A stretch of 37,669 nucleotides of DNA from positions 1 through 37,669 of the forward strand of contig DXFI01000072.1 of assembly GCA_019114565.1 (NCBI GenBank), read 5' to 3'. The translations under genes were made by a program, and so were the position numbers. This stretch comes from Candidatus Desulfovibrio intestinigallinarum (lineage in GTDB: Bacteria; Desulfobacterota; Desulfovibrionia; Desulfovibrionales; Desulfovibrionaceae). The notes under the pieces are model-generated. The model did not search any database. It saw only the letters and a program-made list of their open reading frames with translations, and had not been told where the DNA came from. This document shows, piece after piece, positions 1 through 27,615 of this stretch. Positions within the stretch are counted from its first letter, which is position 1, and every line of letters starts with the position of its first letter.

Positions 1-133
1 GGGGGGCTTGGGGGGAAGGGAAAAACCTCTCGCGCCAGCAGCGACCGAAGGCGGCCGCAGGCCGTGCCCGTTGCGACGAAGGAAGCTACGGGCATCGACA
101 GCAGAGATGAGGGGTTTCCCTTCCCCCCAAACA
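1..133 (-). repeat. Family C hairpin with loop insert, copy C1 (truncated by window edge)
   Basis: 10-29 GGGGGGAAGGGAAAAACCTC pairs with 109-128 GAGGGGTTTCCCTTCCCCCC; insert from about 27 nearly identical to 8531-8635. Confidence 0.8.
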
Positions 134-158
134 ACTTATGAATAGTGTTAACAGGCCC

Positions 159-222
159 TGGAGCGTTTCAACTTTGAAAAAGGTGAAACGCGAGGCGGCG
201 GCACGGCGCCGCCCGGCTCTGT
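159..222 (+). repeat. Family A repeat, copy a (left part only)
   Basis: GGAGCGTTTCAACTTTGAAAAAGGTGAAACGCGAGGCGGCGGCACGGCGCCGCCCGGC. Confidence 0.8.
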
Positions 223-8280: not shown

Positions 8281-8403
8281 TAAAACGCGAGGCTGCGGCA
8301 CAGCCCACCCAGCCCAAAGTGAGCGAAAAAAAACGCATTTTTTCCACGAAACGACAGGCCGTATGGTTTGAAATGTGAAGCGTTTCAAACTGAAAATGCC
8401 ATA
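8281..8403 (+). repeat. Family A multi-hairpin repeat, copy b (5' end truncated)
   Basis: Matches other copies: AACGCGAGGC..., CACGAAACGACAGGCCGTATGGTTTGAAATGTGAAGCGTTTCAAACTGAAAATG. Confidence 0.85.
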
Positions 8404-8432
8404 GAATATTTGATGAACGTTTGCTGCTGGCT

Positions 8433-8640
8433 TCCCCGTCTTCCGAAAAAGCGCGCTGGGGAAAGGATGGGGGGCTTGGGGGGAAGGGCCCAGCCTTTTC
8501 ACAGCGCAGCGAGAAAAGGCGTTCTCGTAGTCCTCTCGCGCGAGCAGCGACCGAATGGCGGCCGCAGGCCGTGCCCGTTGCGACGAAGGAAGCTACGGGC
8601 ATCGACAGCAGAGATGAGGGGTTTCCCTTCCCCCCAACAG
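8433..8640 (-). repeat. Family C hairpin with loop insert, copy C4 (downstream of the lactate permease, minus-strand sense)
   Basis: GGGGGGAAGGG at 8478-8488 complements CCCTTCCCCCC at about 8625-8635; from about 8531 the insert is nearly identical to window start 27-133. Confidence 0.85.
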
Positions 8641-12058: not shown

Positions 12059-12311
12059 TGCTCCTGCGCCACTTGCATCATTTGTCAAAAAGGGAAAGCC
12101 CTCCCGGCCTATGCGGCAGCCGATATGCGAAGGCACGCCATACTGTGCCCGCACTCTACAAGAGCAGAGACTGAAACAGCAAAATTTCCAAAAGAGGCAG
12201 GGAAGCTACCATGACGCGGCACGCAGCATCATTATGAACTGCTGATTCGCACTGAAAGCCCGGATTCCCCGCCCATTGCAGTAGCCCATAGAACATGCTG
12301 CCTTAAAAAAG

Positions 12312-12373
12312 CAGAACGCGAGGCGGCACAGCGCCGCCTCGCGTTTCACCTTTTTCAAAGTTGGAACGCTCCA
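12312..12373 (-). repeat. Family A repeat, copy c (truncated), abutting a family B element
   Basis: Minus-strand GGAGCGTTCCAACTTTGAAAAAGGTGAAACGCGAGGCGGCG...; includes a 13-bp perfect stem AACGCGAGGCGGC/GCCGCCTCGCGTT. Confidence 0.8.
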
Positions 12374-12680
12374 GGGTCAGGACTCATTATCAGATGTTGA
12401 TTTTCCGGGATATTCATCCATGTAATGATGTGAAAAAAGAAAAAAAACAAAATATCATTGCATGTTACAAAAATGTCCATCTTTACCCGTCAGACTCCGC
12501 GCGCGGGTTTTGGGGAGGATGGGGGAGTTTTAGGGGGAAGGAACCCCTTTTTGCCGCAAGCAGCGACCCAACGGGCGGCCGAAGGCCGTGTCCGTTAGGC
12601 GACGCAGGAGCCTTACGGACATCGACAGCAGAGCAAAGGGGATCCTTCCCCCTCAAGACAAACGTAATGCGTCCTGACCC
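12374..12680 (-). mobile_element. Family B MITE-like element (307 bp) containing a family C hairpin with loop insert
   Basis: Terminal inverted repeats GGGTCAGGACTCATTAT / GGGTCAGGACGCATTAC; right flank TA, left flank CA; interior collinear with 27252-27480. No transposase ORF. Confidence 0.8.
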
Positions 12681-14203
12681 TAGCGGCCGTCTTCTTCCCG
12701 CAGCCGCCAGAGAGTTTGCAGGCGTCGGGCATAGCTGTGCTTTGCGCGCAGCTCCTCCCGCCAGGCGGCGCAGAACGCTTTTGTTTTTTCCGGCGACGCG
12801 GCAAAGGTCTCCAGCCGCTCCGGCAAATCCGCGGGACGGCGCAGACGCATGGGTTCCACCAGTGACGCGGGGAATATCTCCAGCCCCGGCGTGGCGTCGC
12901 TCAGCAGCAGACCATGCGCGGCCCAGACATCGAAATGACGCTGACTCAGGCTGTGCGGCAACAGCAGACTCGTCACGTTAAGCACAGCGCCGGAACGCGC
13001 ATAGAGTTCCGGCAGGCCCGCATAATAATCCACGGGAGGCTCCACGGGAGCGCCGGGCAGCACATTCCGCCAGCCATCGTCACCCACAAGGCGCAGCTTC
13101 GCCGCCGCCAGAGCTTCCCGCACCCAGTGCACGCGCCGGGCCTGCGAACAGCTTTCCGCCCCCAGTCCCACGCAGCGCACGGCAGTCCCCGGCCAGCAGT
13201 CCCCGCCCAGCCGTTCGTGCCACCAGTGAAAATCCGGCGGTACGGGATCGTCCGCCGCCACCAGTTGCAGGCCCTCGGTCAGCAGCTCCGGCGGAACCGA
13301 GGCAGCGGCAAAGAAGCTCCCCTTGCGCGGAAAGGCGGAACGCCCCACAAACAGCGGCGACCCCTCCCTCCGGCACAGCGGCGCATGCCACATATGCGGC
13401 GCAACGGCCAGCGGCAGCAGCGACACATGTTGCGCGCCCGCCCGCCGCAGACCATCAAGAAAGCTCGCATCCGTGACGCATATGCGGCAGTCCCGCCACC
13501 ACGGCCCGCGCGCGGCGCTCAACAGATGCCAGGGATTATCCACGCACCAGATGACGACGGAAATCCCCGCCGCAAGGCAGGCATGCGCAAGTCGCCCCTC
13601 GGCATCCAGCCCCCGCAGATTGACGGAAAGCAGCATGGCCGGCGCATGCGCCGCCGCCCGGCGCAGCAGCGGAAAGAGCGCGGCCCCTCCCTTGTCCGGC
13701 GGATAGTCCAGGACGCGCAGCCCCAGTTCCCGGGCGGCATGCCGCAGCTCCAGATGCAGCAGCCCGTGTTCGTCGCCGGGCAGGATCAGCAGAGGCCCGG
13801 CCCCGACGGCACGCGGCGGCAGCGGACAGCAGGCCGCCGCCATACGCCCCAGCAGCGGCCCCCAGAACTCCGGCGCAAGACGCAGCCCCGGCCTGTAGAA
13901 ATAACGGCGGCAGCGCGCCGCCAGCGTTACGGCCTGTTCCGGCGTCACCTCCTGCCATGAGGACGGCGGCAGCGGCGCGTCCGGCAGCGCGCGGCGCGTG
14001 TCCGGACAGTCCAGCCAGAACACGCGCCCGGAAGCGGCAAAGGGCAGCGCCGCCGGATCTTCCGGCCCCAGCCCCAGCAACAGACAGTCGCCGCCTTCCG
14101 GGCCCGCCGCTTCCCACTGACGGGCATCGCCCGAAAGCGTCAGCGGGCGTCCGCAAAAATCAGGAATCGCAACACGGCGGGGAGCTCGGGGGGAAGACGT
14201 CAT
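12680..14203 (-). CDS. Glycosyltransferase, CgeB/DUF3880-like
   Basis: [38 protein letters not shown], and C-terminal [40 protein letters not shown], as in CgeB-type family members. Start set at [10 protein letters not shown]. Confidence 0.75.
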
Positions 14204-14279
14204 GAAAATCTCCGGGCAGACAGGCAAGGAAATACTTGGCTTGCGTCGCAAAAAAGGATATGGCAACGGGCGGTGTGCT

Positions 14280-14924
14280 ATGAAAGAATATCGTGATCAC
14301 TACTTCCTCAAGGCCAAGCGGGAAAACTACCCCGCCCGTTCCGTCTACAAACTGAAGGAATTGGACGGCAAATTCAAGTTGTTCCGCCAGGGAATGCGGG
14401 TTCTCGATCTGGGAGCCGCTCCGGGTTCATGGTCGCTGGGCGCCGCGGAAAAGGTGGGGCGCAACGGCCTTGTGCTGGGCTGCGACATCCAGACCACCGA
14501 AACGGTCTTCCCCGCGCAGGTCACCTTCATGGTGGAAGACGTTTTTCAGCGTTCCCCCGAGTTCGAGGCCAGACTCGACGAAATCGGCCCCTTTGACGTG
14601 GTCATGAGCGATATGGCGCCTCGCACAACCGGCACCAAGTTTACCGATCAGGCGCGTTCGCTGGAGCTGGCCTGCGAGGCCCTCACCGTGGCCCGCATGC
14701 GCCTCAAGCCCGGCGGCAGCTTTGTGGTCAAAATTTTCATGGGGCCGGATATTCAGGAGCTCCTTGCGCCCATGCGCAAGGCTTTCGGCACGGTCAAATC
14801 CTTCAAGCCCAAGAGCTCCCGGGCCGAAAGCAAGGAAACCTTCTTCGTCGGCATGGCCTTCCGGGCCGAAGCTGCCCTCGATCCCCACGCTCCCCCCGAG
14901 CTTCCCCCTCCCTTCGGGGAATAA
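14280..14924 (+). CDS. rlmE: 23S rRNA (uridine-2'-O)-methyltransferase RlmE/FtsJ family
   Basis: [36 protein letters not shown] motif, [43 protein letters not shown]. Confidence 0.93.
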
Positions 14925-15068
14925 CGCGCTTTGCCTTTGAACAAGGCGGAACGCGAGGCGGCGGCACAGCGCCGCCCGGCCCGAAGTGAGCGGAAAAACC
15001 GCTTTTTTCCGCGAAATGACAGGCCGTACGATCTGAAACGCCACGCGTTTCAGACTGAAAAAGCTCTG
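14922..15068 (+). repeat. Family A multi-hairpin repeat, copy d; begins at the rlmE stop codon
   Basis: TAACGCGCTTTGCCTTTGAACAAGGCGGAACGC aligns without gaps to the consensus left end TAGAGCGTTTCAACTTTGAAAAAGGTGAAACGC; downstream hairpins conserved. Confidence 0.85.
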
Positions 15069-15215: not shown

Positions 15216-15953
15216 ATGTCTGGGCATAGCAAATGGGCCAATATTCAGCACCGCAAGGGCCGTCAGGACGCAAAGCGCGGCAAGGTCTTCACCAAGGCCG
15301 CCAAGGAAATCATCATCGCCGCCAAGAACGGCGGCGATCCGGCGGGCAACCCCCGTCTGCGCGCAGCCATTGCGGCCGCCAAGGCCGTGAACTTGCCCAA
15401 GGACAAAATCGAGGCCGCCATCCGCAAGGGTACCGGCGAAGATGCCGGCGGCGATCTCACCGAATGCTTCTATGAAGGTTACGGCCCCGGCGGCATCGCC
15501 ATCATGGTGGAAGTGGCCACCGACAACAAGAACCGCACCGTCGCCGAAGTCCGCCACCTCTTCACCAAGCACGGCGGCAGCCTCGGCACCGACGGCAGCG
15601 TGAGCTGGATGTTCGACCGCAAGGGCGTCATCACCGTGGACAAGGCCGCCTTTACCGAAGATCAGATCATGGAAGCCGCCATGGAAGCCGGCGCCGACGA
15701 CGTTATCGACGATGACGATGTCTGGACCATCCAGACCGCCATGGCCGACTTCGCCGCCGTGCGCGACGCTCTCGAAGCCGCCAACGTGGCCATGCAGTCC
15801 GCCGAACTCGCCATGGTTCCCCAGAACCTCACGGCCGTGGACGCCGAAATGGGTCAGAAGGTGCTGCGCCTCATGGACGCTCTCGATGATAACGACGACG
15901 TCCAGAACGTCTACGCCAACGCCGACTTCCCCGACGACATGCCCACCGACTAA
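15216..15953 (+). CDS. yebC: YebC/PmpR-family protein
   Basis: [40 protein letters not shown] is the diagnostic N-terminus; RBS TTGGAGG. Confidence 0.96.
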
Positions 15954-16102: not shown

Positions 16103-16250
16103 TAGAGCGTTTCAACGTTGAAAAAGGTGAAACGCGAAGCGGCGGCACAGCGCCGCCCGGCCCGAATTGAGCGGAAAACCACGCTTTTTCCACAAGACGA
16201 CAAGTCGTATGCATTTGAAACGCAACGCGTTTCACACTGAAAATTCTTCA
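16103..16250 (+). repeat. Family A multi-hairpin repeat, copy e
   Basis: TAGAGCGTTTCAACGTTGAAAAAGGTGAAACGC...GACGACAAGTCGTATGCATTTGAAACGCAACGCGTTTCACACTGAAAATTC. Confidence 0.88.
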
Positions 16251-16259
16251 GGGCTCTCT

Positions 16260-16775
16260 GTGGTAACAGTCATCGGCATAGACCCCGGTTCCCGCCTCAT
16301 GGGCTGGGGTATCGTCAGCGACCGCTCCGGCGTTCTGCGTCTGGAGGGCTGCGGCGTCATCCGCGGCGCTCAGGGCCCGGACAAAAGCTTTTCCGCGCGT
16401 CTGGCCCGTATCTATGCCGATCTGAACGACGTTATCCGGCAGTATAAGCCCACGGAAGCCGCCATAGAGCAGGTTTTCACCGCCCACAACGCCGCCACGG
16501 CCCTCAAGCTCGGGCAGGCGCGCGGCGTGGCCGTGGCGGCCTGCGCCGCATACGGCATCGGCGTCAGCGACTACCCGCCCACGCTGGTCAAAAAAACGCT
16601 GGTCGGCACCGGCAGCGCCGCCAAGGAACAGGTGTCCTTCATGATCCGCCGCCTTCTCAATCTCCGCGACGAACAATGGGACCCGCGCTGGACGCTGGAC
16701 ACGTCCGACGCGCTGGGCATCGCCATCTGCCACCTTACCATGCGCCGCTTTGCCGCTCTTCAGGCCTCGCACTAG
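16260..16775 (+). CDS. ruvC: Crossover junction endodeoxyribonuclease RuvC (GTG start inferred)
   Basis: VTVIGIDPGSRLMGWGIV, AAIEQVFTAHNAATALKLGQARGVAVAACA, DALGIAICHL; the upstream ORF extension lies inside repeat copy e. Confidence 0.95.
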   Translation: MVTVIGIDPGSRLMGWGIVSDRSGVLRLEGCGVIRGAQGPDKSFSARLARIYADLNDVIRQYKPTEAAIEQVFTAHNAATALKLGQARGVAVAACAAYGIGVSDYPPTLVKKTLVGTGSAAKEQVSFMIRRLLNLRDEQWDPRWTLDTSDALGIAICHLTMRRFAALQASH

Positions 16776-16921
16776 AGCGTTTCAACTTTGAAAAAGGTGA
16801 AACGCGAAGGCGGCGGCACAGTGCCGCCCGGCCAAAAGTGAGCGGAAAAACTGCGCTTTTTCCGCGAAACGACAGGCCGTATGGTTTGAAATGCAAAGCA
16901 TTTCAAACTGAAAATGCTCTA
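16773..16921 (+). repeat. Family A multi-hairpin repeat, copy f (best-preserved, 149 bp); begins at the ruvC stop codon
   Basis: TA|GAGCGTTTCAACTTTGAAA ... TTTCAAACTGAAAATGCTC|TA; four consecutive stem-loops including GTTTGAAATGC-AAA-GCATTTCAAAC. Confidence 0.92.
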
Positions 16922-19497: not shown

Positions 19498-19643
19498 TAG
19501 AGCATTTTCAGTTTGAAATGCTTTGCGCTTCAAACCATACGGCCTGTCGTTTCGCGGAAAAACGCGGTTTTCCGCTCGCTTCGGGCCGGGCGGCACTGTG
19601 CCGCCGCCTCGCGTTTCACCTTTTTCAAAGGTAAGAGCCTCTG
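19498..19643 (-). repeat. Family A multi-hairpin repeat, copy g
   Basis: TTAGAGCATTTTCAGTTTGAAATGCTTTGCGCTTCAAACCATACGGCCTGTCGTTTCGCGGAAAAACGCGG...GCGTTTCACCTTTTTCAAAGG. Confidence 0.9.
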
Positions 19644-22453: not shown

Positions 22454-22596
22454 ACGAGAGCGTTTTACCTTTGAAAAGCAACACGTGAGGCGGCACTGCG
22501 CCGCCCGGCCCGAAGTGAGCGGGAAAACGCCTGTTTCCGCGAAACAACAGGCCGCAGGGCTTGAAACGCGCAGTGTTTCAGACGGAAAATGCCCGA
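22454..22596 (+). repeat. Family A multi-hairpin repeat, copy h (diverged)
   Basis: GAGAGCGTTTTACCTTTGAAAAGC...GAGGCGGCACTGCGCCGCCCGGCCCGAAGTGAGCGGGAAAACGCCTGTTTCCGCGAAACAACAGGCCG...TGTTTCAGACGGAAAATG. Confidence 0.85.
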
Positions 22597-24167: not shown

Positions 24168-24178
24168 AATCACTTTTG

Positions 24179-24262
24179 TTGAGGGGGAAGGAACCCCTTT
24201 TGCTTGCGGCAAAAAAGGGTTCCTTCCCCCTCAAACTCCCCCATCCTCCCCAAAACCCGCCT
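24179..24262 (+). repeat. Family C G-arm/C-arm hairpin, copy C7, downstream of the ABC ATPase
   Basis: TTGAGGGGGAAGGAACCCCTTTTGC...GCAAAAAAGGGTTCCTTCCCCCTCAA stem followed by ACTCCCCCATCCTCCCCAAAACCCGC. Confidence 0.85.
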
Positions 24263-24264
24263 GT

Positions 24265-24415
24265 TAGAGCAATTTCAGTTTGAAATGCTTCGCATTTCAA
24301 ACCATACGGCCTGTCGTTTCGCGGAAAAAGCGCGGTTTTTCCGCTCACTTTGGGCCGGGCGGCGCTGTGCCGCGCCGCCTCGCGTTCCGTCTTTTTCAAT
24401 GGCAAAACGTTCTGA
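24265..24415 (-). repeat. Family A multi-hairpin repeat, copy i
   Basis: TTAGAGCAATTTCAGTTTGAAATGCTTCGCATTTCAAACCATACGGCCTGTCGTTTCGCGGAAAAAGCGCGGTTTTTCCGCTCACTTTGGGCCGGGCGGCG... Confidence 0.92.
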
Positions 24416-27252: not shown

Positions 27253-27480
27253 GGTCAGGACTCATTATCAGATGTTGATTCCCCCGACATATTTTCCTGC
27301 TCACGATATAGAAAAAAATAAAACATCATTGCATGTTATAAAAAAATCCATCTTTACCCGCCTGCACATTATGTGCGGGTTTTGGGGAAGATGGGGGAGT
27401 TTGAGGGGGAAGAAACCACTTTTTGCCGCGAGCAAAAGGGGTTTCTTCCCCCTCAAGAAAACCGTAATGAGTCCTGAGCC
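27252..27480 (+). mobile_element. Family B MITE-like element (229 bp) containing a family C hairpin without insert
   Basis: Termini GGGTCAGGACTCATTAT / GGCTCAGGACTCATTAC (inverted), flanked by TA on both sides (27250-27251, 27481-27482); interior collinear with 12374-12680. Confidence 0.85.
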
Positions 27481-27615
27481 TAAAGCGTTTCAACTTTGAA
27501 AAAGGTGAAACGCGAGGCGTCCAGCGCCGCCCGGCCCGAAGTGAACGGAAAAAGTGCGTTTTTTTCCGCGAAACGACAGGCCGTATGCTTTGAAAGCATA
27601 ACGTTCCAAACTCGC
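27481..27615 (+). repeat. Family A multi-hairpin repeat, copy j (right end degenerate)
   Basis: TAAAGCGTTTCAACTTTGAAAAAGGTGAAACGCGAGGCG...CGCGAAACGACAGGCCGTATG. Confidence 0.88.

Follow-up and report, generated by a model that had tools for sequence, protein, structure and literature searches.

Genomic setting and architecture of the element

The window analysed here, a contig of 37,669 bp from Candidatus Desulfovibrio intestinigallinarum, carries rlmE, yebC and ruvC (the last assigned by Pfam PF02075, its product being 94-95% identical to RuvC of two Desulfovibrio metagenome bins) together with ten copies of a short repeated element, of which a, b, d, e, f, h and j lie on the forward strand and c, g and i on the reverse strand (Table 1). 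The element is 149 bp long, non-coding, and laid out as a chain of four hairpins, H1 to H4. This structure was derived from a fold of the consensus and checked by counting, with consensus columns numbered from the A of the first TA. When folded as single-stranded DNA, three copies proved far more stable than shuffled sequences, with z between -3.5 and -7.7. Copy f has the ends TAGAGC...GCTCTA, and its first TA lies within the TAG stop codon of ruvC.

Table 1. Coordinates of the element copies, their hairpins and neighbouring genes, with the hairpins of the consensus in alignment columns
Feature	Position	Strand	Remarks
H1 of the consensus	columns 6-30		next to the 5' end
H2 of the consensus	columns 35-54
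H3 of the consensus	columns 55-105		outer stem, asymmetric internal loop, inner stem
H4 of the consensus	columns 110-134		next to the 3' end
Copy a	161..217	+	truncated; only the 5' end with H1 and the start of H2
Copy b	8281..8404	+	old copy with a degraded 5' end; two T.G pairs in its H4 (8366-8390)
Copy c	12317..12371	-	5' half followed by an inverted stretch resembling the 5' half
rlmE	14202-14924		FtsJ-like; neighbour of copy d
Copy d	14923..15068	+	between rlmE and yebC; both flanks surround an orthologous copy in the sister species (L097)
H4 of copy d	15032..15054	+	TCTGAAACGC-CAC-GCGTTTCAGA; both co-changed pairs are C-G; DNA fold z = -6.4
yebC	15216-15953		between copies d and e
Copy e	16103..16249	+	between yebC and ruvC
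H4 of copy e	16216-16234	+	TGAAACGC-AAC-GCGTTTCA
Copy f	16773..16921	+	full-length, young copy of the putative MITE; best-scoring class of copies (flanks, ends)
H1 of copy f	16779..16803	+	adjoins and overlaps the 5' terminal repeat; holds covarying pairs 10-26 and 11-25
H4 of copy f	16884..16908	+	GTTTGAAATGC-AAA-GCATTTCAAAC; T-A allele; DNA fold z = -5.8
Copy g	19498..19643	-	full-length; H4 with C.A and G.T mismatches
Copy h	22456..22596	+	full-length, old; H4 with a wobble and a mismatch; both flanks surround an orthologous copy in the sister species
Copy i	24265..24413	-
H4 of copy i	24278-24302	-	T-A allele, loop GAA
Copy j	27482..27612	+	old; H4 degraded

Two further repeats accompany the copies in the window. 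A dispersed repeat beginning TTGAGGGGGAAGGAACCCC occurs at 12503-12562, 24174-24260 and 27375-27461, next to copies c, i and j, with more than 90% identity between its copies, and an 81-bp direct repeat (50-130 and 8557-8637, 100% identical) adjoins copies a and b. The region around copy c (approximately 12287-12373) is a near-perfect long palindrome, possibly a product of template switching.

The element is abundant well beyond the window. We found 235 matches in 825 kb of the genome (about 28% of 2.9 Mb), covering 3.3% of the bases, and 182 matches in 643 kb (about 25%) of the genome of a sister species (G020); the density is close to 285 per Mb in both, and extrapolation from the sampled part gives about 830 copies per genome. 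According to a rough gene call, made with a simple codon-usage gene caller, 284 of 293 copies (97%) in the two samples are intergenic, and the gaps they use are tandem in 168 cases, convergent in 49 and divergent in 19. Copies in tandem gaps show a mild tendency to run in the direction of the genes (103 to 65 in the pooled samples, P = 0.004), a bias seen in the own genome (P = 0.018) and less clearly in the sister species (P = 0.13), which could hint at an effect at the transcript level. Some copies are inserted head to tail, as at L047:2244-2538, where the last TA of one copy is the first TA of the next.

Identity of the element

Flanks of 75 young copies read YTA...TAR, and at three clean loci (L032:2192, L032:8956 and L039:18057) the orthologous empty site has a single TA where the occupied site has two. 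An IS630-family insertion sequence resides in the same genome (G000:C286, L175:1396-2391). The HTH and DDE_3 domains of its transposase match IS630 models, including the NCBIfam IS630 model, and its left end TAGAGCGTTTCAACTTTGAAATGTT and right end TAGAGCAATTCAACTTTGAAATGTT (reverse complement) match the 5' end of the element, TAGAGCGTTTCAACTTTGAAAAAGG, and less closely its 3' end, TAGAGCATTTTCAGTTTGAAATGC. Only one full-length copy of this IS was found in the assembly, besides several end fragments, some of them at contig ends. The element itself has no coding capacity, is shorter than 300 bp and is present in many copies, as is characteristic of MITEs. Because of the TA target duplication, the empty sites and the terminal repeats in common with the resident IS630, we consider it almost certain that the element is an IS630-type MITE, and judging from the shared ends and target it is probably moved by an IS630 transposase.

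Other affiliations were considered and set aside. The sole Y1 transposase locus (L092) is an ordinary IS200/IS605 element with unrelated ends, which does not suit an IS200/IS605 origin, and membership in the REPIN/RAYT class was rejected, as the only TnpA in the genome is of the IS605 type and the MITE has TA duplications. Membership in the RUP family was likewise dismissed, since in the fold the outer ends are paired over some 5 bp only, with no covariation (5 two-sided changes against 6.1 expected). A search of the window with the Rfam 15 covariance models returned no match at the gathering cut-offs.

The genome also contains a second MITE at L035:2180-2316 (G000:C293), roughly 130 bp in length and bounded by the near-perfect terminal repeats TAGAGCAATTCAACTTTGAAATG. 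By its appearance it derives from the IS630 by loss of the interior. The right end of the IS has several more matches, approximately 117 bp long and 73-80% identical, in this genome and in that of the sister species.

Paired base changes in H4

The initial annotation had described compensatory changes in the terminal hairpin of several copies, and every letter that it quoted for them was found in the window. It placed the hairpin of copy d at 15038-15065, an interval that begins inside the stem and overruns it, as H4 of this copy occupies 15032-15054. Copies f and i both read GTTTGAAATGC-NNN-GCATTTCAAAC in H4, and copy d is changed relative to f on both arms at the column pairs 118-126 and 112-132. 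Copy e, for which the same two-position change was claimed, has it at 118-126, whereas its second position is a T.C mismatch. The base-pair changes in H4 are thereby confirmed as real, while the interpretation placed on them is only partly supported, as detailed below.

The two positions are of unequal weight. Pair 118-126 is a covarying pair throughout the family, occurring among 256 aligned copies as C-G in 109, T-A in 84, T.G in 27 and C.A in 11, and it is the pair by which copies d and e differ from f and i. Pair 112-132, in contrast, is nearly private to copy d: it is C-G in three of 245 copies, where independence predicts 0.5, so that its co-change, taken alone, is weak. Copy b does carry the two T.G pairs that had been read as wobble intermediates, but it is an old copy, in which such pairs resemble decay more than an intermediate state.

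Covariation within the species

Covariation was analysed in an alignment of 256 copies, 149 from this genome and 107 from the sister species, and in an earlier set of 172 full-length copies. In the latter, pairs 11-25 and 10-26 of H1 and 118-126 of H4 between them hold ranks 1, 2 and 4 among 10,296 column pairs, 118-126 having the second highest covariation score of all. Under a tree null matched for clade size, the E values over structural pairs are 0.001 for 11-25, 0.029 for 10-26 and 0.002 for 118-126. Two cruder tree nulls gave E of about 0.04-0.3 for the three pairs (0.06-0.07 for 118-126), with only 11-25 falling below 0.05; these nulls are heavy-tailed because changes on deep branches are re-thrown anywhere, and we judge the clade-size-matched null to be the better one. 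All of these values come from custom scripts and from trees of short repeats that are poorly resolved and whose copies may recombine.

Counts of two-sided Watson-Crick changes among the 256 copies agree with this ranking. Independence predicts 54 in H1 and 49 in H4, and 141 and 92, respectively, were observed, whereas the excess is weak in H2 (7 against 3.3) and H3 (10 against 7.6), and the terminal repeat, a natural negative control, shows 5 against an expectation of 6.1. Within the species, covariation is thus strong at three pairs, namely 10-26, 11-25 and 118-126. In H1 the block CA/TG changes to TG/CA as one unit. Both A and C at column 12 are found with either H4 allele; therefore, the alleles have been exchanged or have recurred.

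The loops of H4 (columns 121-123) and H3 (columns 77-82) are hypervariable, with differences of 33% between orthologous copies against 10% in the stems, and minor alleles at column 121 reach 41% even among young copies; alignment error around indels may contribute to this variability. H4 loops are nearly all GAA, ACA, AAA, AAC or GCA, and the H1 loop is almost fixed as GAA.

Covariation across the genus

Related genomes have the identical arrangement of hairpins written in other letters. For the comparison across species, an alignment of 23 sequences, drawn from this genome and a number of others, covered 33 pairs, of which 18, in five of the six helices, show two-sided changes, including eight of the 11 pairs of H4. 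The number of two-sided cells was 62; shuffles gave 20, with none of 500 reaching 62, and slid registers gave 17-32. The covariation score was 0.247, compared with 0.111 in shuffles and at most 0.092 in slid registers. In G007, H2 reads GGCGCTCATTCTTGAGCGCC, H4 is formed by GTTGGAAATTT/AAATTTCCAAC and H1 is wholly different, while CGCGC/GCGCG replaces CGGCC/GGCCG in the outer stem of H3 and AAACA/TGTTT or AAAGA/TCTTT replaces AAAAA/TTTTT in the inner stem. The H4 stems of G017 and G024 likewise consist of different letters with complementarity kept.

H2 was poorly registered in this alignment and hence omitted from the model built on it. The model without H2 found matches in 29 of 79 genomes of the genus, about a dozen of which have at least 40, and in a draw of 150 genomes from the whole order all matches fell within this genus. 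Multi-hairpin IS630-type MITEs of the same layout and different sequence were also observed in G002 (L107-L109) and G017 (L104), those of G002 with the perfect hairpins ACCTTTGACTTT...AAAGTCAAAGGT and GAGCATTTTCA-AAG-TGAAAATGCTC.

The internal loop of H3 (columns 64-67 and 92-96) has GA and GAA strands between G-C and T-A pairs and could form tandem sheared G.A pairs. Its 3' strand, CGCGAAACG, is the stretch best conserved between species, and the internal strand AAGTGAGCGG...CCGCGAAACGACA is kept although the stems vary.

Fate of copies after insertion

Copies were ranked by their divergence outside H1 and H4. Pairing drops with age in all helices: the share of Watson-Crick cells in H2-H4 declines from 97-98% in the youngest copies to about 81-85% in those diverged by 12-20%, a course similar to that of the control, the terminal repeat, where it falls from 95 to 79%. 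In the youngest copies (below 4% divergence), pair 118-126 is T-A in 39, C-G in 13, T.G in two and C.A in one; the active pool contains each of the two paired alleles, and the mismatches are mostly decay.

At 12 loci orthologous with the sister species, divergence is 10.2% in stems and 10.7% in unpaired columns outside the hypervariable loops (P = 0.84), and the four two-sided Watson-Crick changes found there are no significant excess over the 2.0 expected (P = 0.12). These figures do not support the view that the fold is selected in every copy. An apparent deficit of stem changes, 10.2% against 16.8% (P = 0.0006), had suggested selection on stems after insertion, but it disappeared once the hypervariable loops were removed. 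The ratio of internal to terminal substitutions in stems relative to unpaired columns is 0.77 (P = 0.016), which speaks for the reading proposed below, in which the fold is kept in the transposing lineage.

A constraint at the transcript level would favour G.U on the transcribed strand. On terminal branches, G.U and A.C arose from Watson-Crick pairs in 259 and 268 events, respectively (P = 0.73), and across species in 19 and 17, so that no preference for G.U is seen in either comparison, which argues against constraint on a transcript and favours DNA over RNA. An excess of RNA-type wobbles in H4 was an artefact of columns 109-135, wrongly taken as a G.T pair, and vanished once these were left out. 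Since pairing decays with age, orthologous stems diverge as much as unpaired columns and G.U is not favoured, we reject an RNA function in each copy, for which we found no evidence in any of these three analyses.

The youngest and commonest subfamily carries an A.G mismatch at pair 12-24 of H1, by which its match to the terminal repeat of the IS is improved and the pairing is lost. As this mismatch is fixed there, perfect hairpins are not strictly required.

Discussion

Covariation without any maintenance in resident copies is most simply explained by a fold that matters to the transposing lineage or is repaired in it. We therefore propose, with a probability of roughly 0.7, that H4 is the 3' stem-loop of an IS630-type MITE whose arms are kept complementary in the transposing lineage. 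The narrower claim that this maintenance is related to the fold in the active lineage, brought about by selection or by template switching, is likely as well, if held a little less firmly. In such a scheme an IS630-family transposase would recognise the ends TAGAGC(G/A)-TTTCA-...-TTTGAAA and insert the element at a TA that is duplicated, and the arms of the four hairpins would remain complementary in the lineage of copies that goes on transposing. Two or more paired alleles, such as C-G and T-A at 118-126, would coexist in the active pool and be frozen at insertion, after which a copy would decay irrespective of pairing. Compensated changes would then be traces of what happened in source elements and of how the family diverged between species. 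They may arise because copies with a broken hairpin transpose worse or because template switching re-copies one arm from the other, and the level at which pairing matters would be DNA and not RNA. The selection on a folded form that was first suspected is thus upheld in so far as covariation is concentrated in stems, but not as selection acting on each copy, since pairing decays with age. More tentatively, and in our opinion rather doubtfully, the H2-H4 core with its asymmetric internal loop GTGAG.../...CGAAAC may be needed as folded DNA for amplification, and it might act on a single-stranded intermediate of replication or transposition.

Selection for mobility and template-switch correction both predict covariation in the absence of maintenance in residents. 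In template switching (quasi-palindrome correction), the growing strand folds onto itself and uses one arm as the template for the other. A single mutation is thereby converted into a change on both sides in a single step, and entire arms may be replaced; that the process generates hairpins and compensatory changes has been documented (PMC8794818). Whole-stem replacement between species, as in H1 of G007, the H1 block that moves as a unit, the hypervariable H3 and H4 loops at orthologous loci and the resemblance of copy c to an inverted duplication of a 5' half would all suit template switching in place of selection, to which we give an appreciable chance, though one clearly below even. However, mismatches persist in old residents and the orthologous loci show no excess of two-sided changes, so any correction after insertion must be rare. 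If, on the other hand, both arms were linear binding sites of the transposase and their co-change reflected co-adaptation to changing transposases, pairing would not be involved at all. The 3' arm of H4 does lie within the terminal repeat, the motif TTTGAAA is shared by the IS ends, H1 and H4, and at column 12 the young subfamily is coming to resemble the terminal repeat of the IS; yet H2 and H3, distant from the ends, covary across species too, and the H4 stems of G017 and G024 have changed and are still complementary, which makes linear recognition an unlikely cause.

Shared ancestry alone, that is, two or three subfamilies and a handful of old both-arm events with no process acting on pairing, is already disfavoured. 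It would accommodate the facts that most of the within-species signal comes from three pairs and that the cruder nulls leave E at 0.04-0.3, but not that the column pairs of ranks 1, 2 and 4 are all structural, that each H4 allele is found with A as well as with C at column 12, or that five of six helices changed across species while slid registers, in which ancestry is kept, score far lower. Still less probable is a structured RNA that acts in host transcripts in termination, processing or stability, with RNA selection keeping the stems of each copy. The intergenic location, the predominance of tandem and convergent over divergent gaps, the mild co-directional bias and the internal H3 strand that is conserved between species while stems vary all fit such a role, whereas the equal numbers of G.U and A.C events, a decay of stems after insertion equal to that at other positions, and the lack of an Rfam family match and of a T run after H4 speak against it.

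Among known systems, RUP, the 107-bp repeat unit of pneumococcus with IS630-Spn1 as its proposed mobiliser (PMC2229807, PMC3049150), shares with the MITE described here the small non-coding format, TA termini and TA target, terminal repeats resembling a resident IS630, a folded structure and insertions into one another. Its ends are hybridised to each other, however, and it is AT-rich and present in about 108-110 copies, whereas the present MITE has four separate hairpins, about 830 copies, a GC-rich interior, and another sequence and host. For the cyanobacterial MITE Nezha, ISNpu3-like elements are the proposed mobilisers (as cited in PMC3049150). By that brief description, Nezha is thought to be moved in trans by a host IS on account of shared terminal repeats, and it differs from our MITE in sequence and host. 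The IS linked to it presumably belongs to the IS630 family. ERIC and Correia/NEMIS are 100-200 bp intergenic palindromic elements with TA termini as well, ERIC reaching 711 copies in Photorhabdus and NEMIS transcripts being substrates of RNase III (PMC2229807, PMC10969869). Their terminal repeats, however, differ from those found here. REP/REPIN sequences, a class characterised by a RAYT-type Y1 transposase and GTAG-tagged REP, are high-copy dispersed palindromes too; unlike these, the present MITE has TA duplications and inverted terminal repeats.

The internal sequence of MITEs is usually regarded as passive filler between terminal repeats. Here, internal hairpins with compensated stems have been kept while a bacterial genus diverged, and the element concerned accounts for about 3% of some genomes. 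If the folded core is indeed needed, IS630 MITEs would be structure-dependent beyond their dependence on terminal repeats. The case also advises caution, as covariation among repeats of one genome is by itself no proof that each copy functions in folded form. Since the family comprises young and old copies by the hundred as well as orthologous copies and unoccupied sites, it can separate selection for mobility, selection by the host and template-switch mutation as the cause of covariation, a question that is usually blurred in studies of RNA genes.
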